From the NCBI GenBank assembly GCA_963204835.1, contig CAUJHJ010000055.1, positions 1 through 64,000 on the forward strand: DNA of 64,000 bases, in the 5' to 3' direction. The DNA is from Pseudomonadota bacterium (lineage in GTDB: Bacteria > Pseudomonadota > Gammaproteobacteria > Steroidobacterales > Steroidobacteraceae). Below are positions 2-55,545 of the stretch, piece by piece (the first letter of the stretch is position 1; every line of letters begins with the position of its first letter). The translations under genes and the position numbers were made by a program. The notes under the pieces are model-generated. The model saw only the letters and a program-made list of their open reading frames with translations. It did not search any database and was not told the DNA's origin.

Positions 2-763
2 CTACTGCGCCGTCCATCCCCCGTCGATCGCGATCGCCTGGGCGGTCACGTTGCGGGCCGCATCCGACAGCAGGTACTCGGTGAGCGCGGCGATCTCGGC
101 CACCGTGACGAAGGCCTTCTTCGGCATCGGCCGCAGCATGATGTCGCTGACCACGCGCTCGGGCGAAATGCCGTGTTCGCGCGCCTGCGCCTCGATCTGC
201 TTCTCGACGAGTGGCGTTCGCACGTACACCGGGCAGATCGTGTTCACCGTGACGTCGACGTCGCCGTTTTCGAGCGCCAGGGTTTTCGACAGTCCGATCA
301 GCCCGTGCTTGGCGGCGATGTAGGCGCTCTTGTACGGTGAGGCGACCAGCGAATGGATCGAGCCGATATTGACGATCCGGCCGAAGTTGCGAGCGCGCAT
401 GCCGGGCAGCACGGCGCGCGCCATGTTGGCGGCGCCCGTGAGCATCACTGCGATGAGGAAGGCCCAGCGGTCCGCGGGAAACTCCTCGAGGCGCGCCACG
501 TGCTGCAGCCCGGCGTTGTTCACGAGGACGTCGACGCGCCCGGCGGCGCGCACGGCCGTCTCGATCGCCGAGGGCTGTGTCACGTCAAGGCCGTAGCCGC
601 TCGCGGTTCCACCACGCTCCACGATGTCGTCGGCCACCCGCAGGGCCGCCGCGCGATCGATGTCGGTGGCGACGATTTCGTGGCCGGCGGCGGCGAGCAG
701 TACCGCGAGCTCGGCACCGATGCCGCTGCCGGCGCCGGTGATCAGGATGCGTCGTGCAGGCAT
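2..763 (-). CDS. bdhA: D-3-hydroxybutyrate dehydrogenase (SDR family)
   Basis: Cytoplasmic short-chain dehydrogenase that oxidises D-3-hydroxybutyrate to acetoacetate with NAD+, a step of PHB and ketone-body use. The 253-residue protein has the cofactor loop TGAGSGIG (9-16), NNAG (82-85) and the catalytic S135, Y148 and K152. The substrate-binding residues known from the Pseudomonas fragi enzyme (Q94, H144, K152, Q196, W257) all match here with a constant offset of seven (Q87, H137, K145, Q189, W250), which separates it from generic SDRs. The stop codon lies at the window edge, so the gene is complete. It is divergent from the 3HB-oligomer hydrolase, with a shared palindrome between them. Function is confident by family. 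Confidence 0.95.
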   Translation of the reverse strand: MPARRILITGAGSGIGAELAVLLAAAGHEIVATDIDRAAALRVADDIVERGGTASGYGLDVTQPSAIETAVRAAGRVDVLVNNAGLQHVARLEEFPADRWAFLIAVMLTGAANMARAVLPGMRARNFGRIVNIGSIHSLVASPYKSAYIAAKHGLIGLSKTLALENGDVDVTVNTICPVYVRTPLVEKQIEAQAREHGISPERVVSDIMLRPMPKKAFVTVAEIAALTEYLLSDAARNVTAQAIAIDGGWTAQ

Positions 764-799
764 GGCGACACGCTAGCCCAGCCGCGTGCCGGAAGGCCC

Positions 800-815
800 T
801 GATACTTTAGTATCA
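800..815. promoter_or_regulatory. Palindromic operator candidate, copy 1
   Basis: TGATACTTTAGTATCA has perfect six-base arms around a TTTA core. It sits 37 bases upstream of the dehydrogenase start and 35 bases upstream of the oligomer hydrolase start. A close relative (TGGTACCTTAGTACTA) occupies the equivalent place in the next divergent promoter at 5201-5216. The binding protein is not identified. Confidence 0.6.
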
Positions 816-850
816 TTCTGCCCCCGCGCGGATCGGGTTGAACTGGCGCC

Positions 851-2725
851 ATGAACACGCAATCGCCTCGATACCTCGCCGCGACGCTCGGTGTCGTCCT
901 GTTGTCCGGATGCGCCGCCACGGCTCCAGTACCCGCATTGCACGCCGAGCGCATCGGTGAGCCGATCCGCTACGAGCTCGACGGGACCAGCGACGACCTG
1001 CTGACGGCGGGCCTCGGCGCGGCCGGGCTGCTCGGTGCGCCACCGGGGTTCGTCGATCCGTCGCATCCCACCGCGCGCGAGCTGCGCCGGCGCGCCATCT
1101 ACATGAACTACCGTGGCCTTGCCGACCTCGCCGCGGCGCCGGGTGGCGGGCCTGCAGTCGCGGGCGTCGAGCTGCTGGTCGGCCTGCGATCGGCGGCAGG
1201 CCCCTCGACGGCGATGTTGCAGGTTCCGCACAACTTCGATCCCGCGAGGCCCTGCCTCGTCGCGGTGGCGAGTTCGGGATCGCGCGGCATCTACGGTGCA
1301 CTGCCGACGGCTGGAGGCTGGGGGCTGCGCCACGGCTGCGCCGTCGTCCACACCGACAAGGGCACCGGCAGTGGGGCCTTCGACGTGGCGAGCGGCCGCG
1401 GGCTGCGCATCGACGGCACGGTGGGCATGGCCGGTGATCCGCTGCTTTCGTTCTCGCCCGATGCGGCGGCGGTCGCCCGGCTCAAGGCGAAGCGGCCCGA
1501 TGCGGTGCTCTTCCGCCACGCGAACTCCGGCCTGAATGTCGAGGCGCACTGGGGCGAGTACCTGTTGCAGGCCGTCGATGTCGCTTTCGATCTCCTGAAT
1601 CGCGAGTACCCGGGTCGCGCCGCGCCGCTTGCGCCGGCCAATACGCTCGTGATCGCCGCCGGCATTTCGAACGGTGGCGGGACGGTGTTGCATGCGATGG
1701 AACTCGACCGCGCGGGCTGGATCGACGGCGCGGTGGTCTCCGAACCGAACATCACGGTGCCGGGTTTTCGGCTGTTCGGTTATCAGGCGAGGCCCCTGTA
1801 CGACCTCGCGGTGGCGCAGCTGTTGCTGCAGCCCTGCGCCGTGCTCGCGGACGACGACCCGACCGCGCCTTTCCTGGCTGCGACCACGGCCGCACGGCCG
1901 GTACTCGAGCAATGGTGTCGCGACCTCGCGGCGCGCGGCGAGATCGCGGCGAACGGCCCGGGCGTGGCCGCGCTCGCTTCCGCCGCGCGCGAGCGCATCC
2001 TCGCACTCGGCATCCTGCCCGAGGCGCTACGGCTCGGGCACGTGAACGTGCATGCTTCGCTCTGGAGCGCAGTGGCGGTGTCGTACGCGGCGGCCTTCGC
2101 CCGAATGGCGCCCGATGAGCTGCCTTGCGGCGTGAGCTTTGGCGCGACCGACGCGAAGGGTGCGCCGCGCGCGCTCACCGGCGAGGAGTTCGCGCGACTG
2201 TTCGCCGACAGCAGCGGCATCGCGCCGACGGCGGGGATCAATCTCGTGATGCCGGATGCCACTGGCGCCCAGCGGGTCGCCAATTTCGGCAGCATCGACC
2301 TGGCGTCGTGCCTGCGCGGCCTGGGTGCCGCCGTGGCGCCGGGCACGGCCGCCGTCGCGGCGCATCCGCGCGCCGACGCGCGTCCGCTGATCGTGATGCA
2401 TGGCCGTGGCGACGGCCTCATCCCCGTGAATCACACGTCGCGACCGTACTTCGCGGCGAGCGTCGCCGCCGGCAGCGCGGGTATCCGCTACTACGAGGTC
2501 GAGCGCGGCCAGCATTTCGATGCCTTCCTGCCGCTGCCGGGCTTCGCCGGCCACTATGTCGCGATGCAGCCGGTCCTCGATGCCGCGATGGACCTGATGG
2601 CCGCGCGCCTGCGGGGCGAACTCGGCCAGCTGCCGCCGAGCCAGGTCGTCCGCCAGGAGATCCTGGCGGCTCCGGGCGCGGATGCGATCATCACCGCGGG
2701 ACGGGAGCTCCGCATTCCGAAGTGA
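851..2725 (+). CDS. D-(-)-3-hydroxybutyrate oligomer hydrolase, lipoprotein
   Basis: Hydrolyses 3-hydroxybutyrate oligomers (PHB breakdown products) to monomers. The 624-residue length fits the 3HB-oligomer hydrolase family. The N-terminus MNTQSPRYLAATLGVVLLSGC ends in a lipobox with C21, so the enzyme should be anchored in the periplasm or outer membrane. The nucleophile is likely the serine of ISNGGG near residue 273. D520 (HGRGDGL) and H555 (GQHFDAF) are plausible triad partners. It diverges from the 3HB dehydrogenase that would use its product, and shares the palindrome at 800-815. No strong Shine-Dalgarno is visible before this ATG. A 28-base stretch inside it recurs inverted just after the stop codon. 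Confidence 0.9.
   Translation: MNTQSPRYLAATLGVVLLSGCAATAPVPALHAERIGEPIRYELDGTSDDLLTAGLGAAGLLGAPPGFVDPSHPTARELRRRAIYMNYRGLADLAAAPGGGPAVAGVELLVGLRSAAGPSTAMLQVPHNFDPARPCLVAVASSGSRGIYGALPTAGGWGLRHGCAVVHTDKGTGSGAFDVASGRGLRIDGTVGMAGDPLLSFSPDAAAVARLKAKRPDAVLFRHANSGLNVEAHWGEYLLQAVDVAFDLLNREYPGRAAPLAPANTLVIAAGISNGGGTVLHAMELDRAGWIDGAVVSEPNITVPGFRLFGYQARPLYDLAVAQLLLQPCAVLADDDPTAPFLAATTAARPVLEQWCRDLAARGEIAANGPGVAALASAARERILALGILPEALRLGHVNVHASLWSAVAVSYAAAFARMAPDELPCGVSFGATDAKGAPRALTGEEFARLFADSSGIAPTAGINLVMPDATGAQRVANFGSIDLASCLRGLGAAVAPGTAAVAAHPRADARPLIVMHGRGDGLIPVNHTSRPYFAASVAAGSAGIRYYEVERGQHFDAFLPLPGFAGHYVAMQPVLDAAMDLMAARLRGELGQLPPSQVVRQEILAAPGADAIITAGRELRIPK
1756..1783 (+). repeat. Inverted repeat, arm 1 (inside the oligomer hydrolase gene)
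   Basis: These 28 bases match the reverse complement of 2732-2759 at 27 positions. They encode VPGFRLFGY of the hydrolase. The arms are about 950 bases apart, so a local hairpin is unlikely, and chance identity of this length is not credible. Confidence 0.85.
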
Positions 2726-2731
2726 AGATGA

Positions 2732-2759
2732 ATAACCGAACAACCGAAAACCCGGCACC
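2732..2759 (-). repeat. Inverted repeat, arm 2 (after the hydrolase stop)
   Basis: This inverted copy of 1756-1783 begins six bases after the stop codon and has a single mismatch. Read on the minus strand it still encodes VPGFRLFGY. It lies just before the terminator hairpin at 2767-2796. Confidence 0.85.
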
Positions 2760-2766
2760 AACGCGA

Positions 2767-2796
2767 AGGCCGCGGCAGGTTCCCCCGCCGCGGCCT
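2767..2796. terminator. Bidirectional terminator hairpin
   Basis: A ten-base perfect stem (AGGCCGCGGC / GCCGCGGCCT) with a ten-base loop lies between the convergent oligomer hydrolase and TonB receptor genes. A weak pyrimidine-rich tail (CTCTTCGTTCT) follows on the plus side. This is a conventional place for a terminator serving both genes. Confidence 0.6.
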
Positions 2797-2842
2797 CTTC
2801 GTTCTGGCTGTCAGCCGTCAGCCGTTCGCTTCAATCCTCTTC

Positions 2843-5143
2843 TCAGTACTGGTACCTCACGCTGAAGGTGAGCGTGCGCGGCGGGCCGTAGTAGCCGATC
2901 TGGCTCACGTTCGCGAAGGTGCCGGTGGTGCCGAAGTCGTAGCCGGCCGTGCGATAGGCCTTGTCGGTGACGTTCTTCGCATCGACCGCGAGGCGCCAGT
3001 GCGAATCGGCCGTCAGGTAGGACAGGCCGAGGTCCAGCAGTCCGTAAGCCGGCTGGTCGGTCGGGCTCGTCTTCGTGAACGGCGGCGGGGCGATCGAGGT
3101 GTCGTCACGCCACTGGTAGCCAAGTCGCGCCACCGCCTTGCCGGCGCCGACGTCGAAGCGGTACTGCGCGTCGAGCGAGGCGGTCCAGTCCGGCGCGTTG
3201 ATGACCGGCGTCACCGAGGCGAAATTCTGGATCGTGCCCGGGCTCGCCGGGTTCGAGGCGTAGAACTCCTTGAACTCGGCATCGAGGTAGCCGATCGAAG
3301 CCGAGAGCGTGAACGCATCGAGCGGCTGCCAGGTCGACTCGATCTCCACGCCCTGGTTCACCTGCTTGCCGGCGTTCAGCACGGCCGTCGCGTTCGTCGG
3401 CACGCCCATCACGGTGACGAACTGCTGCGTCGTGATCTGCACGTCGGTGTAGTCGGCGTAGAAGACCGTCGCATTGAAGCGCAGGCGGCCGTCGAGCACC
3501 GTGGAGCGCAGGCCGAGCTCGTAGTTGTCGACCGATTCGGGCTTGTAGCCGTCGACCGTGCCGGGGAACACCGTGGCGTTGCCGCGCATGTCGAAGCCGC
3601 CGCTCTTGAAGCCGGCGCTGTACTGCGCGTAGACCATGATGTCGTCGTTGACCTTGAAGTCGGCGCCGAGCTTCGGCGAGAGCTCGCTGTCGGTGCGCTT
3701 GCTCGTGTAGTTGCTTTGCGGCGCGCCGAGCGGGAAGACGCCCGTTGGCAGGTGCGCCGGGTCGAACATGCCCGTGTTGGCCGGGATCTGGCCGCCGAAC
3801 TGCGCGACGAACACGCGGGCATCCTTCTTGTCCTCGTTGTAGCGCGCACCGAAGTTGATGTCCCAGCGATCCGTCAGCGAGAACGTGCCGTCGAAGTAAG
3901 CCGCGACGCTCTCGGTCGAGACGGCGCCCTGCGTGAGGCCGATCAGGCCGCCGAACAGCGGGAAGGTGCCGAGCACCGCATCGAACGAGCCCGCCGCCGT
4001 GCCATCGAAGTAGTAGACGCCGCCGACGCCCTTGATGCGCCCGCCCGTGTAGTTCACCTGCAGCTCGCCGCTGCCCTGGTGGTCGGAGTACTTCGCCGGC
4101 ACGTTGAACTGGTTGACGTTGCGGGTCTCGAAGTCGAGGAAGGTGGTGCCGTCGCCCTCGCGATAGGCGCCGACCGCCTTCAGCGCCCACGCGTCGTTGA
4201 GCGACACCGTGTAGGTCGCAGCCAGGCCCTTGTTCTCGAAGTTCTCCTCGTTGACGGGCATGTCGTTGCGCACGTCGTAGCGGCTGTCGAGCCTTGGGCC
4301 GAACACGTCGTTCAGGCGCTGGCCGCCGCGCACGTTCGAGGTGTCCTTGACGAAGTCGCCCATGATGCGCAGGCGGCTCGAATCGCCCCACAGGAAGTTC
4401 ACTTCGCCGCGGCCGGCCAGGATGTTCTTGTCGCTGACGTCCTCGCCGACGTGGTTGAACTGGTAGGGGCTCGCATCCGCCACGACTTCGCCGTAGCCGT
4501 TTCGCGTGAGCTTGGCGAGCGAGGCGCCCACGTAGACGTGTTCGCCGAGCGCGTGCGAGCCCGCGAGCTTCAGGTCGAGCTGGCCGTAGCTGCCGGCCGC
4601 CACCGTCGCATCGAACGAGGGCTCCCCGACGATGTCGCGCGTCACGTACTTGATGGCGCCCGCGAGCGTGTTCTTGCCGTAGAGGGTGCCCTGCGGGCCG
4701 CGCAGGATCTCGATGCGCTGCACGTCGTAGACGTCGAGCAGCGCGCCCTGCGGGCGGGCGATGTACACGTCGTCCATGTAGATGCCGACGCCCGGCTCGA
4801 AGCCCCACAGCGGGTCGTTCTGGCCGACGCCGCGGATGTAGGCGTTGATCGTGTTGCTCGTGGCGCGACCGGGATTGACCTTGATGTTCGGGGCGAGGGA
4901 GTTGATGTCCTCGAGGTTGGTGATCGCGAGTTCGCGCAGCTGGTCGGCCGAGAAGGCCGAGACTGCCGCAGGCACGTCCTGCAGGCTTTCCTCGCGCCGC
5001 CGCGTCGTCACGACGACTTCCTCGAGCACGGGTCCAGCATTCGCGGCCGACTCCTGGGCGCGCGCCGGTGTCGCAACCACGCCACTCGCCGCGAGGCTCG
5101 CCAGCGCCGCAATGGCGAACGGCGTCGTTTCTCTGATCGTCAT
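2843..5143 (-). CDS. TonB-dependent outer-membrane receptor (candidate 3HB-oligomer uptake)
   Basis: The 766-residue receptor has a signal peptide (about 1-29, ending ATPARAQ), a TonB-box-like EEVVVTT, a plug containing IEILRGPQGTLYG, and a beta-barrel ending in an aromatic residue (FSVRYQY). ATG 5143 is chosen over upstream starts because it is preceded by a strong ribosome site (AGGAGGGG) and gives a clean signal peptide. It is divergent from the GntP-type permease, with a palindrome at 5201-5216 like that before the 3HB genes. No siderophore or heme genes are nearby, so a role in taking up 3HB oligomers or a related ester is inferred from context. The ligand is not proven. Confidence 0.9.
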   Translation of the reverse strand: MTIRETTPFAIAALASLAASGVVATPARAQESAANAGPVLEEVVVTTRRREESLQDVPAAVSAFSADQLRELAITNLEDINSLAPNIKVNPGRATSNTINAYIRGVGQNDPLWGFEPGVGIYMDDVYIARPQGALLDVYDVQRIEILRGPQGTLYGKNTLAGAIKYVTRDIVGEPSFDATVAAGSYGQLDLKLAGSHALGEHVYVGASLAKLTRNGYGEVVADASPYQFNHVGEDVSDKNILAGRGEVNFLWGDSSRLRIMGDFVKDTSNVRGGQRLNDVFGPRLDSRYDVRNDMPVNEENFENKGLAATYTVSLNDAWALKAVGAYREGDGTTFLDFETRNVNQFNVPAKYSDHQGSGELQVNYTGGRIKGVGGVYYFDGTAAGSFDAVLGTFPLFGGLIGLTQGAVSTESVAAYFDGTFSLTDRWDINFGARYNEDKKDARVFVAQFGGQIPANTGMFDPAHLPTGVFPLGAPQSNYTSKRTDSELSPKLGADFKVNDDIMVYAQYSAGFKSGGFDMRGNATVFPGTVDGYKPESVDNYELGLRSTVLDGRLRFNATVFYADYTDVQITTQQFVTVMGVPTNATAVLNAGKQVNQGVEIESTWQPLDAFTLSASIGYLDAEFKEFYASNPASPGTIQNFASVTPVINAPDWTASLDAQYRFDVGAGKAVARLGYQWRDDTSIAPPPFTKTSPTDQPAYGLLDLGLSYLTADSHWRLAVDAKNVTDKAYRTAGYDFGTTGTFANVSQIGYYGPPRTLTFSVRYQY

Positions 5144-5200
5144 GGAACTCCCCTCCTGCTGGATGACCGGCAAGCTACGCCGCCACCCCCGGGTCCGCAT

Positions 5201-5216
5201 TGGTACCTTAGTACTA
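5201..5216. promoter_or_regulatory. Palindromic operator candidate, copy 2
   Basis: TGGTACCTTAGTACTA has arms that pair at five of six positions. It shares the core TACYTTAGTA with the site at 800-815. It lies 58 bases upstream of the TonB receptor start and 40 bases upstream of the permease start. The parallel placement suggests one regulator controls both divergent pairs. Confidence 0.6.
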
Positions 5217-5255
5217 TGGAGCCCACGGCCCCGAAGCGGGCACCTTGCGTGCCCT

Positions 5256-6563
5256 ATGCTGAGTTTTTTCGGACTGCTGCTCGGGCTCGCGCTGCTCATC
5301 TGGCTGACGATGCGCGGCACCGACCTGCTTATCGCGGCGCCACTCTGCGCGCTGCTGGTAGCCGCCACGTCGGGCTTCGCGATCTTCCCGCAGCTTGCGG
5401 CCGAGGGTGCGCCGAGCTTCACCGCGAGCTACATGAGCGGTTTCGTGGGCTACGTGCAGGACTGGTTCTTCATGTTCCTGCTCGGCTCGCTCTTCGGCAA
5501 GATGATGGAATGCACCGGGGCGGCCGACAGCGTCGCCCACTGGATCGTCGGCCGGCTCGGCGCGAAGCACGCGGTCGCCGCGGTGGTGCTCGCCTGCGCC
5601 GTGCTCACCTATGGCGGGGTGAGCCTCTTCGTGGTCGCGTTCTCCGTGTATCCGATGGCCGTGAGCCTCTTTCGCCGCGCCGACCTGCCGCGCCGCTTCA
5701 TTCCATCGACCATCGCCTTCGGCTCGGTCACCTTCACGATGACCTCCGCCGGCTCGCCCGAAATCCAGAACTGGATCCCGACCCGTTTCCTCGGCACCAC
5801 GGCCTATGCGGGCTGGGAGGTCAGCCTCGTCGTCGCGCTCTTCATGCTCGCACTCGGCCAGTGGTGGCTGATGCGCATGGTGCGTGCGGCGAGCGCGGGT
5901 GGCGAGCGCTTCGAGGCGCGCGGCAACGATCCCGAGCCGCACGATCGCAACCTGCCCGCCGTCTGGCGCGGCCTCCTGCCGCTTGTCGTGGTGCTCGGGG
6001 TGTCATGGCTGCTGCATGGGCGACTGGCGCAGTCGGCGCTGATCGTCGCGCTCGGCGCGGGCGTGCTCAGCGCGCTGGCGCTCAACTTCCGCTATGCGCA
6101 GCGCATCGGCGCCGCCGCGGCGGCCGGCGCGCTCGGTGCGCTGGTCGCGATCGCCAACACGTCCGCCGTGGTCGGCTTCGGCGGCGTCGCCAAGCTCACC
6201 GCCGGTTTCCAGGCGGCGGTCGAGGCGATGACGAGCCTGCCCGGCAGCCCGCTGATCGGCGCGGCCATCGCGGTCAGCGTGATCGCGGGCCTCACCGGCT
6301 CGGCCTCCGGCGGGCAGACCATCGCGCTGCCGCTGATCGCGCCGCACTACCTCGACCAGGGTGTCGATCCCGAGGCGCTGCACCGGGTGGTTGCAATCTC
6401 CTCCGGCGGGCTCGACTCGCTGCCGCACAACGGTTACGTCGTGACCACGATCCGCGCAATCTGCGGCGAGTCGTACGCCGGGGCCTATCCGTCCCTTGCC
6501 GCGCTGACCATCATCGTTCCCGTGCTCGGCACGATACTCGCGGTGGTGCTCTTCAGCCTGTGA
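5256..6563 (+). CDS. GntP-family permease, likely 3-hydroxybutyrate importer
   Basis: Inner-membrane carrier of 435 residues with about twelve hydrophobic segments. The stretch TYGGVSLFVVAFSVYP, followed by FTMTSAGSPEIQNWIPT, resembles GntP-family permeases of the type annotated as D-beta-hydroxybutyrate permeases. Start ATG 5256 immediately precedes the first membrane segment (MLSFFGLLLGLALL); upstream in-frame codons would add unlikely sequence. It is divergent from the TonB receptor and lies 15 bases before the CrbS-like kinase. It would carry hydrolysed monomers to the cytoplasmic dehydrogenase. Family is confident; substrate is inferred from neighbours. Confidence 0.85.
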   Translation: MLSFFGLLLGLALLIWLTMRGTDLLIAAPLCALLVAATSGFAIFPQLAAEGAPSFTASYMSGFVGYVQDWFFMFLLGSLFGKMMECTGAADSVAHWIVGRLGAKHAVAAVVLACAVLTYGGVSLFVVAFSVYPMAVSLFRRADLPRRFIPSTIAFGSVTFTMTSAGSPEIQNWIPTRFLGTTAYAGWEVSLVVALFMLALGQWWLMRMVRAASAGGERFEARGNDPEPHDRNLPAVWRGLLPLVVVLGVSWLLHGRLAQSALIVALGAGVLSALALNFRYAQRIGAAAAAGALGALVAIANTSAVVGFGGVAKLTAGFQAAVEAMTSLPGSPLIGAAIAVSVIAGLTGSASGGQTIALPLIAPHYLDQGVDPEALHRVVAISSGGLDSLPHNGYVVTTIRAICGESYAGAYPSLAALTIIVPVLGTILAVVLFSL

Positions 6564-6578
6564 GACCATGACGGTGGC

Positions 6579-9500
6579 ATGTTGACACCGTGGCTGATCG
6601 CGCTCCTCGGGCTCGCCTACGTGGGCGTGCTGTTCGTGGTCGCGCATCTCGGCGATCGCATGGCGGCGGAGGGCCGCGGGCTCGCCCTGCGTCCCTGGGT
6701 CTATAGCCTGTCGCTTGCGGTGTACTGCACCTCGTGGGCGTTTTACGGCACGGGCGGCCAGTCCTCGAAGCTGGGTTGGTGGCTGCCGCCGACCTACGCC
6801 GGCACGATCCTGCTGTTCCTGCTCGGTTCGCGCTTCCTCGGCAAGATGATCCGGCTCGGGCGCAAGCAGAAGATCACCTCGATCGCCGACTTCCTCGCCG
6901 CGCGCTACGGGCGCGATCCGCGGGTGGCGGTGCTCGTCACGATCGTCGCCGTGTGCGGGCTCACGCCCTACATCGCGCTGCAGCTGAAGGCGATCGACAT
7001 CAGCTTCGTTGCGCTCGCGGGCATCGATGGCAATGCGGGCCGCGCCTTCTTCGATACCGCCATCGTCGTCGCGATCGCGCTCGCGGCCTTCGCTATCCTC
7101 TTCGGCACGCGCCACGCCGACGCGACCGAGCACCATCCCGGCATGATGCTCGCGCTCGCCTTCGAGTCGCTCGTCAAGCTCGGCGCCTTGCTCGCCGTCG
7201 GCGCCTTCGTCACCTTCGGCCTCTTCGACGGCCCGGCGGAGCTTGCCGCGCGCGTCGCCGCCGATCCGCAGGTGCGCGCATTGCGGGAGGCGGCGCGCCC
7301 CGCCGGCCACTACCTCGCGCTCACCGTGCTCGGCGTGCTTGCGATCTTCTGCCTGCCGCGCCAGTTCCATGTCGCGGTGGTCGAGAATGCGGGTCCGCGC
7401 GACCTGCAAATCGCGCGCTGGCTCTTCCCCCTGTATCTCGTCGCGATCAGCCTGTTCGTGCTGCCCGTCGCCAATGCGGGCCTCGTGACCTTCGGCGCGA
7501 ACGCGCTCGACCCCGACCTGTTCGTGCTGAACCTGCCGCTCGCGGCAGGGCAGCCGGCACTCGCGCTCCTCACTTTCATCGGCGGCCTTTCCGCCGCGAC
7601 CGGCATGGTGATCGTCGCCTGCATCGCGCTGTCGACGATGGTCTGCAACGAAATCGCGATGCCCGCGCTGCTGCATCTGTTCCCGGCCCTGCGCCGCCGT
7701 GCCGACCTCACGGGCCTGCTGCTGCGCGTGCGACGGGTCGCGATCGTGTTGCTGCTCGCGGCAGCCTATGTGTACTACCGCTCCATCGCGTACCTCGGCG
7801 CGCTCGCGGAAATCGGCGAGATCGCGATGGCGGCGGCCGCGCTCTTCGGGCCGCTCGTGTTCGCGGCGCTCTACTGGAAGCGGGCGAATGCGGCCGGCGC
7901 GCTCACCGGGCTCGCTTGCGGCTTCGCCGTGTGGCTCTACACGCTGATCGTGCCGGTGTTCGCCTCGGCGGGCTACCTGCCGGCCTCGCTCGTGGCGACG
8001 GGGCCCTTCGGCCTCGCCTGGCTGCGGCCGACCGCGCTGCTCGGCATCGAGGGCGTCAACCCGCTCGCGCACGGGCTCGCAGCGAGCCTGCTGGCGACGG
8101 CCGCGGGCCTCGTCGCGGGATCGCTTGCCACGCGCCGCACGCTGGTGGACCGCATCCAGGCGGTGGCGTTCGTCGACGCGGCCGATGGCGGGCATTCCGA
8201 GCACCCGGGCGCACGGCCCGGCGCGCTGACGCTGCGCGAACTGCGCGCGCTCGTCGCACAGTTCGTCGGCAGCCATCGCACGGCGGAGCATTTCGCCCAG
8301 TTCCACGGCGGGGAGGACGCGGCGGGCGGTGCTGCCGCGCGGCGCGCGAGCGCGGCGCAGCTCGAGTCGGCGCAACGCCTGCTCGGCTCCGTGATCGGCG
8401 CGGCGTCCGCGCGCCGCGTGATCGATGCCGCGGTGTCCGGCAAGGAACTCGTGCTCGAGGACGTCGTCTCGATCGTGGATCGCGCCTCGCGCGCGCTCGA
8501 GTTCAACCGGGACCTGCTGCAAGCGACCATGGAGAACGTCAGCCAGGGCATCAGCGTGGTGGACGACGAGCTGCGGCTCGTCGCGTGGAACCAGCGCTAC
8601 CTAAAGCTGTTCGACTATCCGCCGGACCTGCTCTACATCGGCAAGCCGATCCTGGAGGTGCTCGAGTTCAATGCGGCGCGTGGCGAGCTCGGCGCCGGCG
8701 ATGCGGCCCTGCTCGTGGCGCGGCGCATGGCACACCTGCGTCGCGGCACCGACTACGTCTACCAGCGCGTCGGGCCGGACGGCACGGTGCTCGAGATCCG
8801 CGGCAACCGCATGCCGGGCGGCGGCTTCGTGACCAGCTACACCGACGTCACCGAGTACAAGCGCACCGAGGCCGCGCTCGAGCAGCGCGTCACCGAGCGT
8901 ACCCGCGCCCTGTCGGCCATGAACGAGGAGCTCGCCGTCGCGAAGGCCGCCGCCGAGCGCGCCAACCTCGGCAAGACCCGCTTCCTCGCCGCCGCGAGCC
9001 ACGACGTGCTGCAGCCCCTCAATGCGGCGGGCCTGTTTGCCGGCGCGCTGCTGCAGAAGCTCGAGCGGCCCGAGCACAAAGGACTCGTCGGCGACATCGA
9101 GAACTGCCTGCGCACGGCGGAGGGCGTGCTGACGGACCTGCTCGACATCTCGAAGCTCGACGCGGGCGTCGTGCAGGCGCAGGAGAGCGACGTGCCGGTC
9201 CGGGAACTGTTCGGCGCGCTCGAGGCGGAGTTTGCGCTGAGCGCGCGCGCCCGGGGGCTCGAGCTGCGCATGCGATCGGGTGATGCGATCGCGCGCAGCG
9301 ATGCGAAGCTGCTGCGCAGGGTGCTGCAGAATTTCGTCGCGAACGCCATCCGCTACACCGCCGCGGGCGGCGTCCTCGTGGCATGCCGGCGGCGGGGCGG
9401 GTTGCTGCGCATCGAGGTGCGCGATACCGGTCCCGGCATCGCAAGCGACCAGCTCGGGCGCATCTTCGAGGAGTTCTACCGGGCGCCTACGGCGCGCACC

Positions 9501-10097
9501 GGCGACGCCGCCGCGGGCAAGGGCTTTGGCCTCGGGCTCGCCATCGCGGACCGCATCGCGCGGCGGCTCGGGCACCGGCTCATCGTGCGCTCCACGCCCG
9601 GGCGCGGCTCGCTGTTCGCGGTCGAGGTGCCGCGCGGCACGGCGGCGCCGGTGCTCGCGCGGCCCGCCCGACGAGCGCCGGCCACGGGCTCGCTGGATGG
9701 AGTGCGCGCGCTCGTGATCGACAACGATGCCGCAGTGCTGCGTGCGATGGTCGCGTTGCTCGAATCATGGCGCTGCGAGGTGCGTGCGGCAGGCGCGGAA
9801 CGGGAGCTGCCGCCGCTCGAGGGCTGGTGCCCCGACGTGCTGATCGTCGACTATCACCTCGACGACGGCGTCACGGGCCTCGCGGTGGCGGCGCGGATCC
9901 GTGCCGCGATCGGCGCCGACCTGCCGCTGGTCGTGATCACTGCCGACGCAGCCGACGCCATCCGCGACGAAGTCGAGGCCGCGGGCGGCGCCTGCCTGCG
10001 CAAGCCGGTGCGGCCGCTCGCACTGCATAGCGTGCTGCGCCGGGCGGTGCTGCACGCGGCCGATCAGCCGTCGAGGGACAGCGGCTCCGCGTCCTGA
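6579..10097 (+). CDS. CrbS-like hybrid sensor histidine kinase with SLC5 transporter domain
   Basis: This 1172-residue inner-membrane sensor has, in order: a sodium/solute symporter (SLC5) domain (about 1-510), a linker resembling the STAC region (about 550-620), a PAS domain from about 646, a HisKA with ASHDVLQPLNA (His near 807), a HATPase with NAIRYTA, DTGPGIAS and GFGLGLAI, and a C-terminal receiver with VDYHLDD (Asp near 1090). This is the order of CrbS/ErcS-type kinases, which act with CrbR on acetyl-CoA synthetase expression in Vibrio and Pseudomonas; CbrA lacks the receiver. It is tail-to-tail with the CrbR-like regulator, overlapping by 34 bases. Acetate or 3HB sensing is inferred. 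Confidence 0.9.
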   Translation: MLTPWLIALLGLAYVGVLFVVAHLGDRMAAEGRGLALRPWVYSLSLAVYCTSWAFYGTGGQSSKLGWWLPPTYAGTILLFLLGSRFLGKMIRLGRKQKITSIADFLAARYGRDPRVAVLVTIVAVCGLTPYIALQLKAIDISFVALAGIDGNAGRAFFDTAIVVAIALAAFAILFGTRHADATEHHPGMMLALAFESLVKLGALLAVGAFVTFGLFDGPAELAARVAADPQVRALREAARPAGHYLALTVLGVLAIFCLPRQFHVAVVENAGPRDLQIARWLFPLYLVAISLFVLPVANAGLVTFGANALDPDLFVLNLPLAAGQPALALLTFIGGLSAATGMVIVACIALSTMVCNEIAMPALLHLFPALRRRADLTGLLLRVRRVAIVLLLAAAYVYYRSIAYLGALAEIGEIAMAAAALFGPLVFAALYWKRANAAGALTGLACGFAVWLYTLIVPVFASAGYLPASLVATGPFGLAWLRPTALLGIEGVNPLAHGLAASLLATAAGLVAGSLATRRTLVDRIQAVAFVDAADGGHSEHPGARPGALTLRELRALVAQFVGSHRTAEHFAQFHGGEDAAGGAAARRASAAQLESAQRLLGSVIGAASARRVIDAAVSGKELVLEDVVSIVDRASRALEFNRDLLQATMENVSQGISVVDDELRLVAWNQRYLKLFDYPPDLLYIGKPILEVLEFNAARGELGAGDAALLVARRMAHLRRGTDYVYQRVGPDGTVLEIRGNRMPGGGFVTSYTDVTEYKRTEAALEQRVTERTRALSAMNEELAVAKAAAERANLGKTRFLAAASHDVLQPLNAAGLFAGALLQKLERPEHKGLVGDIENCLRTAEGVLTDLLDISKLDAGVVQAQESDVPVRELFGALEAEFALSARARGLELRMRSGDAIARSDAKLLRRVLQNFVANAIRYTAAGGVLVACRRRGGLLRIEVRDTGPGIASDQLGRIFEEFYRAPTARTGDAAAGKGFGLGLAIADRIARRLGHRLIVRSTPGRGSLFAVEVPRGTAAPVLARPARRAPATGSLDGVRALVIDNDAAVLRAMVALLESWRCEVRAAGAERELPPLEGWCPDVLIVDYHLDDGVTGLAVAARIRAAIGADLPLVVITADAADAIRDEVEAAGGACLRKPVRPLALHSVLRRAVLHAADQPSRDSGSAS

Positions 10098-10741
10098 ATC
10101 TCGAGCGAGCGGAACGCGAGTGTCGCCTGCGTGCGGTTGCGCGCGCCGAGCTTGGCGAGCGTCGCGGAGACGTGCGCCTTGGTGGTCTGCTCGGTGATGC
10201 CGAGCTCGGCCGCGATCTGCTTGTTGGGCTTGCCGAGCGCGAGCAACTCGAGCACGCGGAACTGCTGTGGAGTCAGGCTCGCGAGGCGCGCTGCGATCGC
10301 GACCTGGCCCGCGGCCGCGTTGCCGCCCGCCTCGAGCGCAGCCGCCGGAAACCACTGGCCGCAGTCGAGCACCGCGCGGATCGCGGCGATGAGATCGCCG
10401 AGCGGCGCCGATTTCGGCACGTAACCGGCGGCGCCGAAGGCGAGCGCGGCGCGGGCGGCGTCGGCGCCCTCGTTGGCCGATACCACGATCACGGCCATGC
10501 CGGGATGCTGGCTGCGCAGCCAGGCGAGCGGCGCAAAGCTGCGGCTGCCCGGCATCATCAGGTCGAGCAGCACGAGGTCGGCATCGGGCGCGCCGGCGGC
10601 GGCGGCGCGCAGCGCCACGGCGTCGGCCACCTCGATCACCACGGCTCCACCCATGGCTTCCTCGACCGCGCGGCGCAGCGCCGCGCGAAAGAGCGGATGG
10701 TCGTCCGCGATCAGCACCGTGCGACGGGCGGGTTCGTGCAT
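10064..10741 (-). CDS. CrbR-like LuxR-family response regulator
   Basis: The 225-residue regulator has a receiver domain (ADDHPLF near 12-18, phospho-acceptor D60 in VLLDLMMPG) and a C-terminal LuxR-type HTH from about 155 to 205 (LTPQQFRVLELLALGKPNKQ). This matches the CrbR/ErdR/AgmR group that partners SLC5-type hybrid kinases. ATG 10741 directly precedes the receiver and is better than the long upstream extension, which runs antisense through the next gene. It converges on, and overlaps by 34 bases, the cognate kinase gene, so the two are probably expressed separately. Its likely target acs begins at 63471, about 53 kb away. Confidence 0.9.
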   Translation of the reverse strand: MHEPARRTVLIADDHPLFRAALRRAVEEAMGGAVVIEVADAVALRAAAAGAPDADLVLLDLMMPGSRSFAPLAWLRSQHPGMAVIVVSANEGADAARAALAFGAAGYVPKSAPLGDLIAAIRAVLDCGQWFPAAALEAGGNAAAGQVAIAARLASLTPQQFRVLELLALGKPNKQIAAELGITEQTTKAHVSATLAKLGARNRTQATLAFRSLEIQDAEPLSLDG

Positions 10742-10825
10742 GCTTGCGCATTGTCGCAGGACGGCGGGCCGGCCGCATTCTGCCGCCCGTGCTACCCTGC
10801 ACTGCCCGGTCGCCGCGCAAGGCCC

Positions 10826-19545: not shown

Positions 19546-19630
19546 CTGGTTTTCCATCATATTGCATTGCCGGCTCTCCCCGGTACGCTCCGCTCGACCT
19601 ACAACGCCGCATCACCGGGGAGTCGAGTCC

Positions 19631-22483
19631 ATGCCATCCACGAACCATCGCGTCGGCGTAGCCGTTCGCTCGTCCATTTCGCTGGCATGGCTGCTGGCCG
19701 CCGGGGTGGCCATCGGCCAGTCGCAGGAGGACGCGCCAGCCGACGACGGTTCGGTGCAGGAAGTAGTGGTGACGGGATCGCGCATCCAGCGCTCCGACAC
19801 GAGTTCGGTGGGCCCGCTGCAGACGCTGACATCGGAGGATATCGTGGCCGCCGCGCCGACCTCGGTGGGCGACCTGCTGCAGGCGTTGCCGAGCGTCGGC
19901 ATGAGCCTCAATTCGAACGGCACGCAGGGCACCTCGTTCGGCGTGTCGTCGATCAACCTGCGCTACCTGGGGTCTGCCGAAGGTTCTGGCAATCGCACGC
20001 TGGTGCTCGTCGACGGGCACCGCTGGGTCAATGCCGTGGGCGGCCGCGGCTTCCGTGACTTCGTCGACCTGAATACGATTCCGCTCGGCATCATCGACCG
20101 CATCGAAGTGCTCAAGGACGGCGCTTCGGCCATCTACGGCGCGGACGCGATCGCCGGCGTCGTCAATATCCACACCAAGCAGCGCCTCGACGGCTTCGAG
20201 GCGGCGGCTCGCTACGGCCTCACCGATCGGGGCGACAACGAGAACGTCAGCGGTTTCGTGAACTGGGGCATGCAGGGCGAACGCGCCTCGGCATTGCTCT
20301 CGTTGAGCTACAACGATACGAAGCCCCTGCTCACCATGGATCGTGCGCTCACGGCGCGCGCGATCGTGCCGCTGACGGCGCCGCCGACTTCGCCGCGCGG
20401 CCTGTACGTGCTGCCGGGCCTCTCGAACAACGCCTTCTTCGGCACCCCCGCGGGATTCGCCGCGAACGCGCAGGGCGCGATCACCCGCCTGCCGGGGGGA
20501 GGCCCCGTGGGCGCCGGCGCCGCGGCGGACAACTCGTTCCGCGTGGCGAGCCTGCCGGCGGACGATTTCAATACCCAGTCGCAGGGCATTTACGCGATTG
20601 GCCCGAGCGAGCGCTACGGCGCGTTCGCGCGCTTCGGCTGGCGCTGGAGTGACGACCTCGAATTGCACGCCGAAGCCCTCTACAACCGGCGCGAGTCGAA
20701 CCAGCTGTTCTCGCCGGTGGGCCTCGATGTCCGCGGATCGCGGGGATTTGCGATCTCGAATGACCAGGCCTTCAATCCCTTCGGCACGGCCAACGGCGTG
20801 CCGCTGGCGAATGCCCGGGCGTTCTCGGGCAATACCTTCCGCATCCAGCGTGTCGCCGAGGAAGTCGGCAACCGCAACAACGTGCAGCGGATCGACACGG
20901 CGCGCCTTGCGCTCGGCCTCGACGGGCGGTTGCAACTCGCGGGCGAGTGGCGGTGGGACGCCTTCCTGTCCTGGTCACGCAACGAAGCCACATTCGATGC
21001 GTTCAACCAGGTGAACTACGACCACGTCTACCAGGCACTGCGCTCTCCGGCCGTCTGCGCCGCCGCGACCGGCTGCACGCCGCTCGACCTTTTCGGCACC
21101 ATGACGCCGCAGATGGCCGACTACATCCGCTACAACGGGCACGACGAGCAGGTCGCCACGCAGGTCGATTTCGCCGTCAATGCCTCGCGCGAGCTGTTCG
21201 CCTTGCCGGCCGGCGCGGTCGGATTCGCCATGGGCTACGAATACCGCCGCGAGAAGGCCGATGACCGTCCCGATGCCTTCGCGGCGTCGCTGTCCACGGT
21301 ACAGCCGCTATCGGGCGGCGCACCGCAGCCACCCACCACGGCGCAGGCGCGCGAGCCGACGGCAGGCTCCTACGACCTGCACGAGATCTACGCCGAGCTC
21401 AACCTGCCGCTGTTGCGCGACCTGCCGTTTGCCTATCGGCTCGATGTCGACGCAGCCGCGCGCTACTCCGAGTACTCGACGGTCGGTGGCGAGGCGACTG
21501 CGAAGTTCGGCCTCGCCTGGCGCCCGGTTCAGGACCTGCTGCTTCGTGGCACCTATTCGCAGGGCTTTCGCGCGCCCTCGATCCTCGAGTTGTACCAGGG
21601 AAGGCGACTCACTAACTTCCAGGCGGTCGACCCCTGCAATGGTGGCGGCGCAGGCCTGCCGGGTTGCGCCGGTGTGCCATCGACCTACAACCAGAACCAG
21701 TTCGGTGGCGGCACCATCAATGGCGTGGTCTCGGGCAACGAGAACCTCGAGCCGGAGACGGCCGACACGTTCTCGGCGGGGCTCGCCTTCACCCCGGGCT
21801 TCCTGCCGGGCGCGTCGCTGACCTTCGACTGGTTCCGCATCGATGTCGACAACGCAATCGCGGCACAGACGGCGACGCAGCTGCTGCAGGCCTGCGCGAT
21901 TCGCCAGGTCAATTGCGATCTCATTGACCGGGCTTCCTCGGGCGAAGTGCTCGAATTGCGCCAGGCCGTCGTCAACCTCTCGAGCATCCATGTGAGCGGC
22001 TTCGACACGACCCTCGGTTACGCTTTCGACACGCGCATCGGTGATTTCACCGCCTCGGTCGACGCGAGCTACCTCGATTCCTTCCGTACCACGATCGTGC
22101 AACCCGACGGGTCGACCGAGATCGACGAACGTGCCGGCAAGTCCGACCAGCCCCGCTCGACGTTTCCGCGCTGGAAGGGCCAGGCCAGCCTGCGCTACTC
22201 AAGAGGCGACTTCGACGCCGGCTACAAGGCGCGCTACATTGGCAGCAGCTACGATGTGGCGGGCAACCCGGTCAATGGCGGCGAGATCGACGCGATCACC
22301 TATCATGACCTGCAGTTGGCATACTCTTTCGGCGATTCAAAGTATCGAGTCGCGCTCGGCATCGACAATTTCACGGATCGCCAGCCGCCGGCCTCGTGGG
22401 CCAACAACCCGATCAACTTCGACATCTATACCTATGACATCCGCGGTCGCTACATGTACGCCACGTTCCGTGCCACCTTCTGA
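19631..22483 (+). CDS. TonB-dependent outer-membrane receptor
   Basis: The 950-residue receptor has a signal peptide (about 1-31), a TonB-box-like [10 protein letters not shown], a plug with [16 protein letters not shown] and [10 protein letters not shown], and a long barrel ending in an aromatic residue (YATFRATF). It belongs to the large VVVTGSRI type common in Xanthomonadales and related groups. ATG 19631 follows a GGGGAG-containing leader and gives a normal signal peptide. It is first in an operon with an AbgT-family carrier 17 bases downstream, then a CocE-type hydrolase and a LysR regulator. It probably imports the compound those proteins use; the ligand is unknown. Confidence 0.92.
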
Positions 22484-22500
22484 AGCCTGACCGCGGCGTC

Positions 22501-24012
22501 ATGGCGAAGGTGCTGGATCGCATCGAGCGTCTGGGCAATGCGCTCCCCGATCCGGTCGTCATCTTCCTGTGGCTGATCGCGGCGTTGATCGCCGCGTCGG
22601 TACTGGCGGCTGCGCTGGGTGCCTCGGCCGTGCATCCGCTCACGGGTGCGCCGGTCGTCGCCGAGAGCCTGCTGTCCGAGGCCAACGTGCGGCGCCTGCT
22701 GGCCGAGATGCCGCTGACCTTCGTGCACTTCCCGCCGCTTGGCCTGGTGGTGGTCGTCATGCTCGGAGCCGCGGTTGCCGAACGCTCGGGTCTCCTCGCG
22801 GTGCTGGTCGGGCGCGCCGTGCGCGCAGCGCCGCGTACCTGGCTGACGCCCGCCACTTTCCTCGTCGCGCTCCTGTCGCACCATGCCTCGGATGCCGCCT
22901 ACGTCGTGCTGATTCCACTCGCGGCGATCGTCTACCGGGAAGCGGGCCGGCACCCGCTGCTCGGCATGGCGGTGGCCTACGCGGGCATCTCGGGCGCCTT
23001 TGCCGGCAACCTGCTGCCGGGGCAGTTCGACGCACTGATGCTCGGGATCACGCAGGCCGCGGCGCAGTTGCTGGAGCCGGCACGTCCGCTCAATCCGCTC
23101 GGCAACTGGTGGTTCACGGCGGCGCTCGGTGTCCTGTTGCTCTGCGTGGCCTGGCCGGTCGCCGAGCGCTGGGTCGCGCCGCGCCTCGCGACAGTCGTCG
23201 TGGACGGGGAGGCGCTCGAATCCGTGGGTGCCGGCGAGGCGCCGGTCCAGTTGAGCGACCTGCAACGGCGCGGCCTGCGTCGGGCGGGTGTGGCCGCGCT
23301 CCTGATCGTTGCGCTGTTCGCCGCGCTTCGCTACTGGCCCGGCTACACGCCGCTGCTCGATCCCGCGGCGGAAGGTTATGCCCGCGAGGCGCCTTTCTAT
23401 CGCGCCCTGATCGCCGGCTTCATGCTCCTGTTCCTGGGTTGTGGCTGGGCCTACGGGCGTGCGGTGGGCAGCATCCGGACGCATCGTGACGTCGTGAAGA
23501 TGATGGTCGAGGGCCTGCGCGACATCGCCCCCTATCTCGTCATCGCGTTCGTCGCCGCGCATTTCATCGCCCTGTTCGCGTGGTCGAACCTCGGCCCCAT
23601 ACTCGCGATCCGCGGCGCGCAATGGTTGCGTGGCCTCGAGTTGACTCCCGCGGCGATGCTCGTGCCGCTGCTGGTCATCTCGTCGGTGTTCGACCTGCTG
23701 ATCGGGTCGGCGTCCGCGAAATGGAGCGCCATGGCGCCGGTGGTCGTTCCGATGCTGATGTTGCTTGGAATATCGCCGGAGATGACGACCGCGGCCTATC
23801 GCGTCGGCGATTCGATCTTCAATATCGTCACGCCCATCGCCTCGAACTTCGTGCTGGTGCTCGTGTTTTGCCAGCGCTGGGTGCGTGGCTTCGGCGTGGG
23901 GTCGCTGATCGCGATGATGCTGCCGTTCAGCGTGGCTTTCGGCATCGCGGGCTTGCTGCTCGTGGCCATCTGGGCGGCGCTCGGCCTGCCTGTCGGGCCC
24001 GGCGCGCCATGA
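22501..24012 (+). CDS. AbgT-family transporter
   Basis: The 503-residue inner-membrane protein has about eleven hydrophobic segments and the usual AbgT length. Motifs include LSHHASDAAYVVLIPLAA, NPLGNWWFTAA and SSVFDLLIGSASAKWSAMAP. AbgT proteins import p-aminobenzoyl-glutamate or export sulfonamides. Here the setting, between a TonB receptor and a cytoplasmic hydrolase, favours import of an amide, ester or peptide-like compound. Its stop overlaps the next start as ATGA, so the two are translationally coupled. No abgA/abgB amidohydrolase is adjacent, so the classical substrate should not be assumed. Confidence 0.9.
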   Translation: MAKVLDRIERLGNALPDPVVIFLWLIAALIAASVLAAALGASAVHPLTGAPVVAESLLSEANVRRLLAEMPLTFVHFPPLGLVVVVMLGAAVAERSGLLAVLVGRAVRAAPRTWLTPATFLVALLSHHASDAAYVVLIPLAAIVYREAGRHPLLGMAVAYAGISGAFAGNLLPGQFDALMLGITQAAAQLLEPARPLNPLGNWWFTAALGVLLLCVAWPVAERWVAPRLATVVVDGEALESVGAGEAPVQLSDLQRRGLRRAGVAALLIVALFAALRYWPGYTPLLDPAAEGYAREAPFYRALIAGFMLLFLGCGWAYGRAVGSIRTHRDVVKMMVEGLRDIAPYLVIAFVAAHFIALFAWSNLGPILAIRGAQWLRGLELTPAAMLVPLLVISSVFDLLIGSASAKWSAMAPVVVPMLMLLGISPEMTTAAYRVGDSIFNIVTPIASNFVLVLVFCQRWVRGFGVGSLIAMMLPFSVAFGIAGLLLVAIWAALGLPVGPGAP

Positions 24013-25853
24013 ACGCCGCGCAGGCGGAGCACCGGATCAGCGCTCGCATCGAGATGCGCGACGGCGTGCATCTCGCCACGGATATCTACCTGCCGGCCGG
24101 CGAGGGCCCGTGGCCAGCGCTGCTCGAACGCACGCCGTACGGGCGGCGCGGCACGAACCACGCCGACCGCAGCCTGCTCGATCCGGTGCCGCAGCCGAAG
24201 CCGCAGATCGCCGCGCGCTTCGCCGCAGCGGGTTATGCCTATGTGTTGCAGGATTGCCGCGGCCGCTTCGACTCCGAGGGCAAGTTCGCCAAGTACCTGA
24301 ACGAGCAGCCGGATGGGGTCGACACGCTGGCCTGGATCCTCGCGCAGCCCTGGTGCAGCGGCCGCGTGGCGACACTCGGCTTCTCGTATGGCGCTCATGT
24401 CCAGACGGCGCTCGCGGCCGCGGGCCCCGCGGGGCTCGGCGCGATGTTCGTCGATTCGGGCGGCTTCTCGAGCGCTTTCCACAGCGGCATCCGCCAGGGC
24501 GGCGCCTTCGAGCTGAAGCAGCTCACCTGGGCGCTGAAGCACGCCCGCCTCTCGCCCGCCACGGCGGCCGACCCGCAACGCCGCGCGGCGCTCGAAGCGG
24601 CGGATATCCGCGAATGGGCGCGCGTGATGCCCTGGACGAGGGGGCATTCGGCGGTGAGCGCCGCGCCGGAGTACGAGGCATACGTCGTAGAACAATGGTC
24701 GAAGGAGTGCTTCGGCCCATACTGGCAGCGGCCCGAGCTGTACGCGCGCGGCTACTACGATCGATTCCCCGACGTGCCGATGGTGCACATGTCGAGCTGG
24801 TACGACCCGTACGCGCTGACGGCGACGGAAAATTTCGCGGCGCTGTCGAAAGCGAAGCGTGGCCCGGTGCGGCTCGTGATGGGTCCCTGGACCCATGGCC
24901 AGCGCTCCGTGACCCACGCCGGCGGCGTCGATTTCGGTCCCGCCGCGACGCTTGACGGCAACCTTGCTCCCGACTACGTGACGTTGCGCCGTGATTTCTT
25001 CGATCGCCACCTGCGGGGACTCGATGCGCCCGACTGGCTGGTCGCGCCGGTGACATTGTTCGTGATGGGTGGCGGGTCGGGCGCCCGTACGGGCGAAGGG
25101 CGGCTGTTGCACGGCGGCAGCTGGCTGCGCACGACCGATTGGCCGCCGCGGGAAGCGCAGCCGACCCCGTGGTACCTCCGGGAAGGCGGAAGGCTCGACA
25201 GGGCTGCGCCGACGAGCGATGCGCAAGTCACCTGGCGCTTCGATCCGCTCGATCCAGTGCCCACCATCGGTGGCGCGATTGCGTCGGGTGCGCCGCTGAT
25301 GGAAGGTGGCGCGTTCGACCAGCGCGAAACCCGGGACACTTATGGCGCGCGCCATCCGGGGCGCGCGCTGGCTGCGCGCGAGGACGTGCAGGTGTTCGAG
25401 ACCCCGCCGCTCGCCGCGGACGTGGTCGTGGTGGGGCCGGTCGTGGCGCGCTTGTGGGTATCCACGAGCGGGCGCGACACCGACTTCACGGTGAAGCTCC
25501 TCGACGTGCATCCTCCGACCCCCGACTGGCCCGATGGTTTTGCGATGAACCTGACCAGCGGGATCCAGAGGCTGCGATTTCACGCGGGCTACGAGCAGGC
25601 CCGGCCCGTCGAGCCGGATCGTGTCTACTGCATTGAAGTCACGCTGTTCCCGACGGCCAACAGGTTCATGGCGGGGCATCGGCTCCGGGTAGACGTGTCG
25701 AGCAGCAATTTCCCGCATTTCGATGTCAATCCGAACACGGGTGCGGCGGCCGCAGTCCCGGCCGATCCCGTGACAGCGGTCAATCGCCTCCATTTCGGCC
25801 GCGATCGCCCCTCGGGCATCGTCCTGCACCTGCTGCCGGCGCCGCGCACATGA
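24009..25853 (+). CDS. CocE/NonD-family alpha/beta hydrolase
   Basis: The 614-residue hydrolase has the X-Pro dipeptidyl-peptidase/CocE catalytic domain (about 20-320) with nucleophile S127 in GFSYGA and a likely catalytic histidine near 296 (PWTHGQRS). A C-terminal jelly-roll domain follows (about 360-614, ending in RLRVDVSSSNFPHFDVNPNTG). There is no signal peptide, so it acts in the cytoplasm on imported substrate. Family members cleave esters, amides or proline peptides; which applies here cannot be told. It overlaps both neighbours by four bases (ATGA), which ties it to the AbgT carrier and the LysR regulator. Confidence 0.9.
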   Translation: MNAAQAEHRISARIEMRDGVHLATDIYLPAGEGPWPALLERTPYGRRGTNHADRSLLDPVPQPKPQIAARFAAAGYAYVLQDCRGRFDSEGKFAKYLNEQPDGVDTLAWILAQPWCSGRVATLGFSYGAHVQTALAAAGPAGLGAMFVDSGGFSSAFHSGIRQGGAFELKQLTWALKHARLSPATAADPQRRAALEAADIREWARVMPWTRGHSAVSAAPEYEAYVVEQWSKECFGPYWQRPELYARGYYDRFPDVPMVHMSSWYDPYALTATENFAALSKAKRGPVRLVMGPWTHGQRSVTHAGGVDFGPAATLDGNLAPDYVTLRRDFFDRHLRGLDAPDWLVAPVTLFVMGGGSGARTGEGRLLHGGSWLRTTDWPPREAQPTPWYLREGGRLDRAAPTSDAQVTWRFDPLDPVPTIGGAIASGAPLMEGGAFDQRETRDTYGARHPGRALAAREDVQVFETPPLAADVVVVGPVVARLWVSTSGRDTDFTVKLLDVHPPTPDWPDGFAMNLTSGIQRLRFHAGYEQARPVEPDRVYCIEVTLFPTANRFMAGHRLRVDVSSSNFPHFDVNPNTGAAAAVPADPVTAVNRLHFGRDRPSGIVLHLLPAPRT

Positions 25854-55017: not shown

Positions 55018-55540
55018 CGGCGAACGTCAGCGGCTCGGCCGCGCGGAAGGCGAACCAGCCGGCGAGCACGCTCGCCGGAAAGCTCTCGATGGCCACGTTG
55101 TTGATCTGCACGCTTTCGTTGTAGAACTCGCGTCGCTCGGCGATGGCCGTTTCGAGTCCCGAGATGCGCGCCTGCAGGCCGCGAAACTGCGGATTGGCCC
55201 TGAGATCCGGGTAAGCCTCGGCGATCACGGCGATCTGAGCGAGGTCGGCGCGCAATGCGCCCTCGGCGATGCCGACCGCGCGTGCGCTGGCGCCCTGTTG
55301 CGCGGCGACGGCCGCCGCCCGCGCGCTCGCCAGATGCGCCAGCAGGCCGGCCTCGAATTGCGCGTAGGTGCGGCAGGCGTCGACCAGTTTGGGGATCTCG
55401 TCGTTGCGCTGCTTCAGCAATACGTCGATGTTGGCCCAGGCCTTGCCCACGTTGTGCTTGACGAGTACGAGCTGGTTGTAGAGCGCCACGGCGTAGACGC
55501 CCGCCACGAAGAGCAGCAGGAGGAGCGTGAAGCCGATCAT
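55010..55540 (-). CDS. lemA: LemA family protein, copy 2
   Basis: The 176-residue protein has an N-terminal membrane helix (about 3-22) and a LemA helical domain (VKHNVGKAWANIDVLLKQRNDEIPKLVD read in two parts, then FYNESVQINN near 140). LemA proteins are of unknown function. It overlaps the GIDE-domain gene by eight bases and lies five bases after the other LemA gene. The two copies share the core motifs but differ along most of their length. Confidence 0.92.
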   Translation of the reverse strand: MIGFTLLLLLFVAGVYAVALYNQLVLVKHNVGKAWANIDVLLKQRNDEIPKLVDACRTYAQFEAGLLAHLASARAAAVAAQQGASARAVGIAEGALRADLAQIAVIAEAYPDLRANPQFRGLQARISGLETAIAERREFYNESVQINNVAIESFPASVLAGWFAFRAAEPLTFADD

Positions 55541-55545
55541 GCGCG

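Follow-up and report, generated by a model that had tools for sequence, protein, structure and literature searches.

A candidate locus for TonB-dependent import of PHB hydrolysis products and its proposed CrbS/CrbR-type control

PHB is both a common natural polyester and a commercial bioplastic, and the known genes for its utilization encode extracellular PHB depolymerases, the 3-hydroxybutyrate (3HB)-oligomer hydrolases of Ralstonia and Cupriavidus (PF10605), and 3HB dehydrogenase (HBDH). In open-access papers, we found neither an outer-membrane receptor assigned to these genes nor a description of the route by which water-soluble PHB oligomers cross the Gram-negative outer membrane. A search of the open-access literature, with subscription journals and preprints outside its scope, also found no published TonB-dependent receptor (TBDR) for polyester oligomers. 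TBDRs for non-iron cargo are known from carbohydrate loci, which include SusC/D and the maltodextrin and xylan receptors. Outside carbohydrates, DdvT of Sphingobium SYK-6 is a TBDR for the lignin dimer DDVA (PMC6874591).

The genes described here lie at the left edge of a 64-kb stretch of DNA (the window; GC ~70%) from a Steroidobacteraceae-like MAG of an uncultured, soil-type bacterium. Its closest named relatives are Steroidobacteraceae bins, and its genome is labeled G000 in our comparisons. An earlier note on this DNA had described four genes at 2-6563, arranged as two divergent pairs with a common operator. Codon use and family models confirmed that all four are coding: HBDH, an (R)-3-hydroxybutyrate dehydrogenase (2-763, minus strand), is divergent from HBOH, a lipoprotein 3HB-oligomer hydrolase (851-2725, plus strand), and the TBDR, a proposed importer of 3HB oligomers or PHB hydrolysis products (2843-5143, minus strand), is divergent from a GntP/IT-superfamily permease, a proposed inner-membrane 3HB importer (5256-6563, plus strand). 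As that note had stated, the pairs share an operator-like element, since near-identical palindromes lie in the HBDH/HBOH promoter (GATACTTTAGTATC, 801-814) and in the TBDR/permease promoter (GGTACCTTAGTACT, 5202-5215). The next two genes, which the note did not include, encode a CrbS-like hybrid histidine kinase (6579-10097, plus strand) and a CrbR-like LuxR-type response regulator (10064-10744, minus strand). The window contains no Rfam match.

The hydrolase and dehydrogenase belong to the same families as those of the known PHB utilization genes. The proposed route resembles that of carbohydrate TBDR loci in oligomer entry through a receptor, periplasmic finishing, a monomer permease, and a gene order that mirrors the route. 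It differs in that the substrate would be a polyester rather than a glycan, control would be of the CrbS/R type, and no SusD-like lipoprotein gene lies beside the window's TBDR, whose neighbors are HBOH and the permease. The DdvT system is alike in having a TBDR in a catabolic locus, an inner-membrane carrier, a regulator, a non-iron carbon source, and linked breakdown genes, but differs in its aromatic-dimer ligand and MarR-type control, with no lipoprotein hydrolase named (PMC6874591).

Family models and residues support the assignments of the two enzymes. HBDH scores 340.1 bits against TIGR01963 (cut-off 307), and its closest PDB entries are known 3HB dehydrogenases (3v2h, 5yss, and 1wmb). 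The SDR active site Y148xxxK (YIAAK) and the substrate motifs LQH, SIHS, VEKQI, and GGWTAQ are all present. HBOH matches PF10605 at 435.8 bits over profile positions 24-646 of 688, carries a lipobox (LSGC) and a Ser273 within GISNG, and has conserved GDG and QHFD motifs that align with those of distant members. No solved structure for HBOH was found in a search for PDB relatives. We place it in the 3HB-oligomer hydrolase family and predict, from its sequence, hydrolysis of (3HB)n. The residue at lipobox position +2 is alanine, which under the general +2 rule would direct the protein to the outer membrane.

The two transport proteins were characterized in the same way. The TBDR contains Plug (PF07715) and beta-barrel (PF00593) domains, an N-terminal signal, and a TonB-box-like EEVVVTTRR stretch, and its AlphaFold model is a complete plug and barrel (pLDDT 82). 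By sequence, the solved structures closest to it are receptors for siderophores, heme, and PQQ, which holds for almost any TBDR. No curated equivalog model for a siderophore or B12 receptor exceeded its cut-off. The permease falls just below the PF02447 cut-off (22.1 versus 22.5 bits), which its orthologues exceed (25.2 and 44.5 bits). Its AlphaFold model (pLDDT 82) has an IT-superfamily fold that matches the DASS, TRAP-M, and YdaH carboxylate carriers; no sequence relative was found among solved structures.

The acetate switch CrbS/CrbR, known from Pseudomonas and Vibrio, shares with the window's regulatory pair a hybrid kinase with a membrane domain, a LuxR-type regulator, and an imperfect palindrome, but serves acs/actP, whereas the window's pair is tied to 3HB/PHB genes (PMC5715377). 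The window's kinase scores 400.7 bits against NF041832 (cut-off 400). It has a membrane N-terminus followed by PAS (PAS_7), HisKA, HATPase, and REC domains, while the SLC5 domain had no Pfam match at E 0.001. Its LuxR-type partner, which matches PF00072 and PF00196, adjoins the kinase in relatives. A CrbS-like kinase is kept in all g1 loci and also occurs in families f28, f195, f189, and f154. The linkage of the kinase to 3HB/PHB genes instead of acetate genes suggests that CrbS-type kinases have diversified toward the sensing of further short acids.

The two palindromes are the sole matches of their motif in 64 kb, where 0.08 would be expected, and the motif recurs at equivalent promoters in relatives. 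The strict core, TACYNNRGTA, occurs in 17/38 promoter regions of CrbS-bearing loci (shuffled mean ~0.16) and in 0/38 promoter regions of loci without CrbS, counts that include near relatives, such that the regions are not independent. A looser form adds receptor promoters, for example in L007, L008, L087, and L096. Shuffles and conservation thus reject a chance palindrome. The CrbR operator of Pseudomonas fluorescens (the ACTU motif) is an imperfect palindrome that includes TAATACTAAGGTCGTCT, and the window's receptor promoter, read on the receptor's strand, contains TACTAAGGTA, which resembles the ACTU motif at this element (PMC5715377). Because of this likeness and the co-occurrence with CrbS, the common palindrome is most likely the operator of the neighboring CrbR-like regulator.

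We examined linkage from both sides. Gene calls in relatives were made in this analysis; the genomes are mostly MAGs and the neighborhoods partly annotated. With HBOH as the sole query for family-level and class-level locus searches, the block HBDH-HBOH-TBDR-permease-CrbS-CrbR was recovered in 7/7 genomes of the window's genus and, in its entirety, in L008, L087, L089, and L096, which represent four further genera of that family; genus g13 has the variant order permease-HBOH-ligase-TBDR. At the class level, families f28, f195, and f189 contain the set of permease, TBDR, CrbS, CrbR, HBDH, and HBOH. No related TBDR was found near HBOH in genera g23 and g14 or families f47 and f166, indicating that the hydrolase does not depend on the receptor there. 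There was also none within flanks of ~7-8 kb around the betaproteobacterial-looking HBOH loci of f122, f198, and f202.

In the reciprocal search, the window's TBDR was used as the query in 20 HBOH-bearing genomes, with more than 280 bits taken as a clear orthologue. Fourteen of the 20, from four families, have one, and all remaining TBDRs in those genomes score 256 bits or less. Thirteen of the 14 orthologues have HBOH at a distance of 0.04-20 kb, and in the remaining genome (G164) the receptor and HBOH are each near a contig start. A naive estimate puts the probability of such proximity by chance at 0.001-0.01 per genome. The reciprocal search thus rejects chance adjacency of the two genes. 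The conserved pairing of this receptor clade with oligomer hydrolases, which the earlier note had proposed looking for, is present in families f1, f28, f195, and f189.

In a class-wide sample, 9/369 genomes have an orthologue at E 1e-84. Five of these nine adjoin HBOH, two (L195 and L196) lie near a gene for a secreted PHB depolymerase and have no HBOH, and two, from f158, lie in a locus with a ligase, an alpha/beta hydrolase, and a TetR regulator. Among the orthologues without HBOH in the window's family, those of g4 and g18 adjoin an HBDH that passes TIGR01963, and those of g7, G139, and G145 adjoin a ligase, a hydrolase, and TetR. Overall, most receptors without HBOH have another PHB/3HB gene as a neighbor, either a secreted PHB depolymerase (families f28, f154, and f158) or a 3HB dehydrogenase. 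Altogether, six or more bacterial families have the receptor next to enzymes of PHB degradation. A search of plasmids for relatives found distant receptors only, all without HBOH; four of these, on sphingomonad plasmids (~33-37% identity), have unrelated neighbors. The earlier note had named orthologues in siderophore or vitamin loci as contrary evidence; among ~45 neighborhoods, partly annotated, we recognized none.

We built a tree of 69 receptors, including ~19 G000 paralogues. One set of 45 holds every receptor that is linked to HBOH, a depolymerase, HBDH, or TetR/ligase, together with five plasmid relatives, and 24/24 paralogues fall outside it (branch SH-aLRT 97), a position that is expected for many of the 45 because they were fetched by likeness to the window's receptor. 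Receptors that were found through HBOH alone (L008, L087, L089, L096, L119, L121, L124, and L168) also fall inside the set. The HBOH-linked receptors do not form one clade, as six changes are needed on the tree. Thus, the link either arose early and was then lost in places or was established more than once. As the linked receptors are spread and have relatives in other contexts, we rejected a single, strictly HBOH-bound receptor clade.

Depolymerases provide a further association. In seven loci, an NCBIfam-confirmed extracellular scl-PHA depolymerase lies beside or near the receptor, of type 2 in L087, L089, L168, and L196 and of type 1 in L171, L195, and L193. The L195 enzyme (type 1, 281 bits) is the divergent neighbor of the receptor, and in L196 the depolymerase (type 2, 404 bits), HBDH, an esterase, and the permease are encoded in a row. 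Of the type-2 depolymerases in 30 genomes, 5/5 are in the receptor neighborhood, the farthest being ~15 kb away (G020). Counting HBOH and both depolymerase types, the receptor is thus linked to three distinct kinds of PHB or oligomer hydrolase. The esterase of L196 (L196:5546-6907), whose gene lies between those for the PHB depolymerase and the permease, matches NF005262 (606 bits; MetX-like putative esterase of the E22 family) and may likewise hydrolyze a polyester or its oligomers.

The window's own genus presents a different picture. No type-2 depolymerase was found in the window's genome or in six other genus members (MAG completeness 78-100%), and PF10503 exceeded its cut-off, with a weak match, in one of five members tested, an absence that refers to two depolymerase families. 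Since the genus has no clear secreted depolymerase, it may depend on scavenging oligomers released by others.

That this is a PHB/3HB utilization locus is nearly certain. It is quite likely, judging from the sequences and their linkage, that it serves TonB-driven uptake of PHB hydrolysis products under CrbS/R-type control, and the oligomer-uptake interpretation of the earlier note is supported. In the route that we propose, extracellular PHB depolymerases would make oligo-(R)-3-hydroxybutyrates, the enzyme being encoded at the same locus in some relatives; for the window's genus, the oligomers would probably be made by other organisms. The TBDR would take the oligomers through the outer membrane with TonB energy, lipid-anchored HBOH would cut them to 3HB at or inside that membrane, the IT-fold permease would bring 3HB into the cytoplasm, and HBDH would oxidize it to acetoacetate. 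The CrbS/CrbR-type pair, acting through the common palindrome, would switch on both divergent pairs. The genes, their domains, the operator-like palindrome, and the conserved linkage are what the sequences show; from these we infer what the receptor carries (oligomers, dimers, or monomers), the side on which HBOH acts (periplasm or outside), the direction of transport, the order of the route, and the activating signal. We assign a probability of roughly 0.6 to the reading that a previously unrecognized TBDR clade imports oligo-3-hydroxybutyrate as part of a widespread PHB utilization locus like those for glycans, and that the window's genus, which lost or never had a depolymerase, scavenges. 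Counting against uptake by a receptor, 3HB and its dimers are small enough for porins.

The clade's other settings leave some room for a broader role. In g7, f158, and Niveispirillum, the genes around related receptors encode an alpha/beta hydrolase, a TetR regulator, and an AMP-forming acyl-CoA ligase, and a ligase of the same family is also found beside HBDH in HBOH loci. Together with the unrelated neighbors of the sphingomonad plasmid receptors, these loci suggest that esters of other kinds may be cargo for the wider clade. The receptor could then be an importer of esters, lactones, or hydroxyacids that carries 3HB oligomers here and other acyl compounds elsewhere, a possibility that we consider doubtful, since the f158 locus L193 also has a type-1 PHB depolymerase ~3 kb away and receptors tied to HBOH or depolymerases occur across the whole clade tree.

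As a separate observation, receptor relatives in L121, L195, L193, L194, L178, L039, and L077 are accompanied by genes for an AMP-forming acyl-CoA ligase and an alpha/beta hydrolase. Both of the ligases tested fall below every listed NCBIfam cut-off. The ligases may activate acetoacetate or 3HB.

It is rather improbable that, in a PHB/3HB locus, the receptor's cargo is the monomer or dimer, with a surface hydrolase or depolymerase cutting oligomers before uptake. The alanine at +2 of the HBOH lipobox and the lipoboxes of the L087 and L168 depolymerases are compatible with such surface cleavage, but monomers cross porins easily, so an energized receptor would be of little use, and g4 and g18 keep the receptor with HBDH and without HBOH. 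A receptor for iron-siderophores, heme, or cobalamin that is a neighbor by chance, as its closest solved relatives might suggest, is very improbable and was rejected, since the linkage is conserved over several families, the CrbR-like operator is shared, and no siderophore or cobalamin (B12) gene was recognized in any of the partly annotated neighborhoods examined.

If oligomer import by this clade is correct, polyesters would join the cargo of TonB-dependent receptors. As the clade can be recognized by sequence and gene order, the question of outer-membrane uptake is testable, and the clade could serve as a marker for PHB-oligomer consumers in environmental genomes, including scavengers that have no depolymerase.

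The window contains other receptor genes. A second island (19562-26794) comprises a TBDR (19562-22483), an AbgT-family transporter (22501-24012), a CocE/NonD S15-type hydrolase (24009-25853), and a LysR regulator (25850-26794). This is again a receptor with a hydrolase, an inner carrier, and a regulator, probably for a peptide or an ester. At 36338-38341 lies a third gene of this kind, whose divergent TonB-dependent receptor-like product matches the plug domain weakly (31.6 bits). Finally, a pair of paralogous genes stands side by side at 54193-56118; their short, membrane-anchored products look LemA-like by eye, and a gene for a membrane protein comes next.
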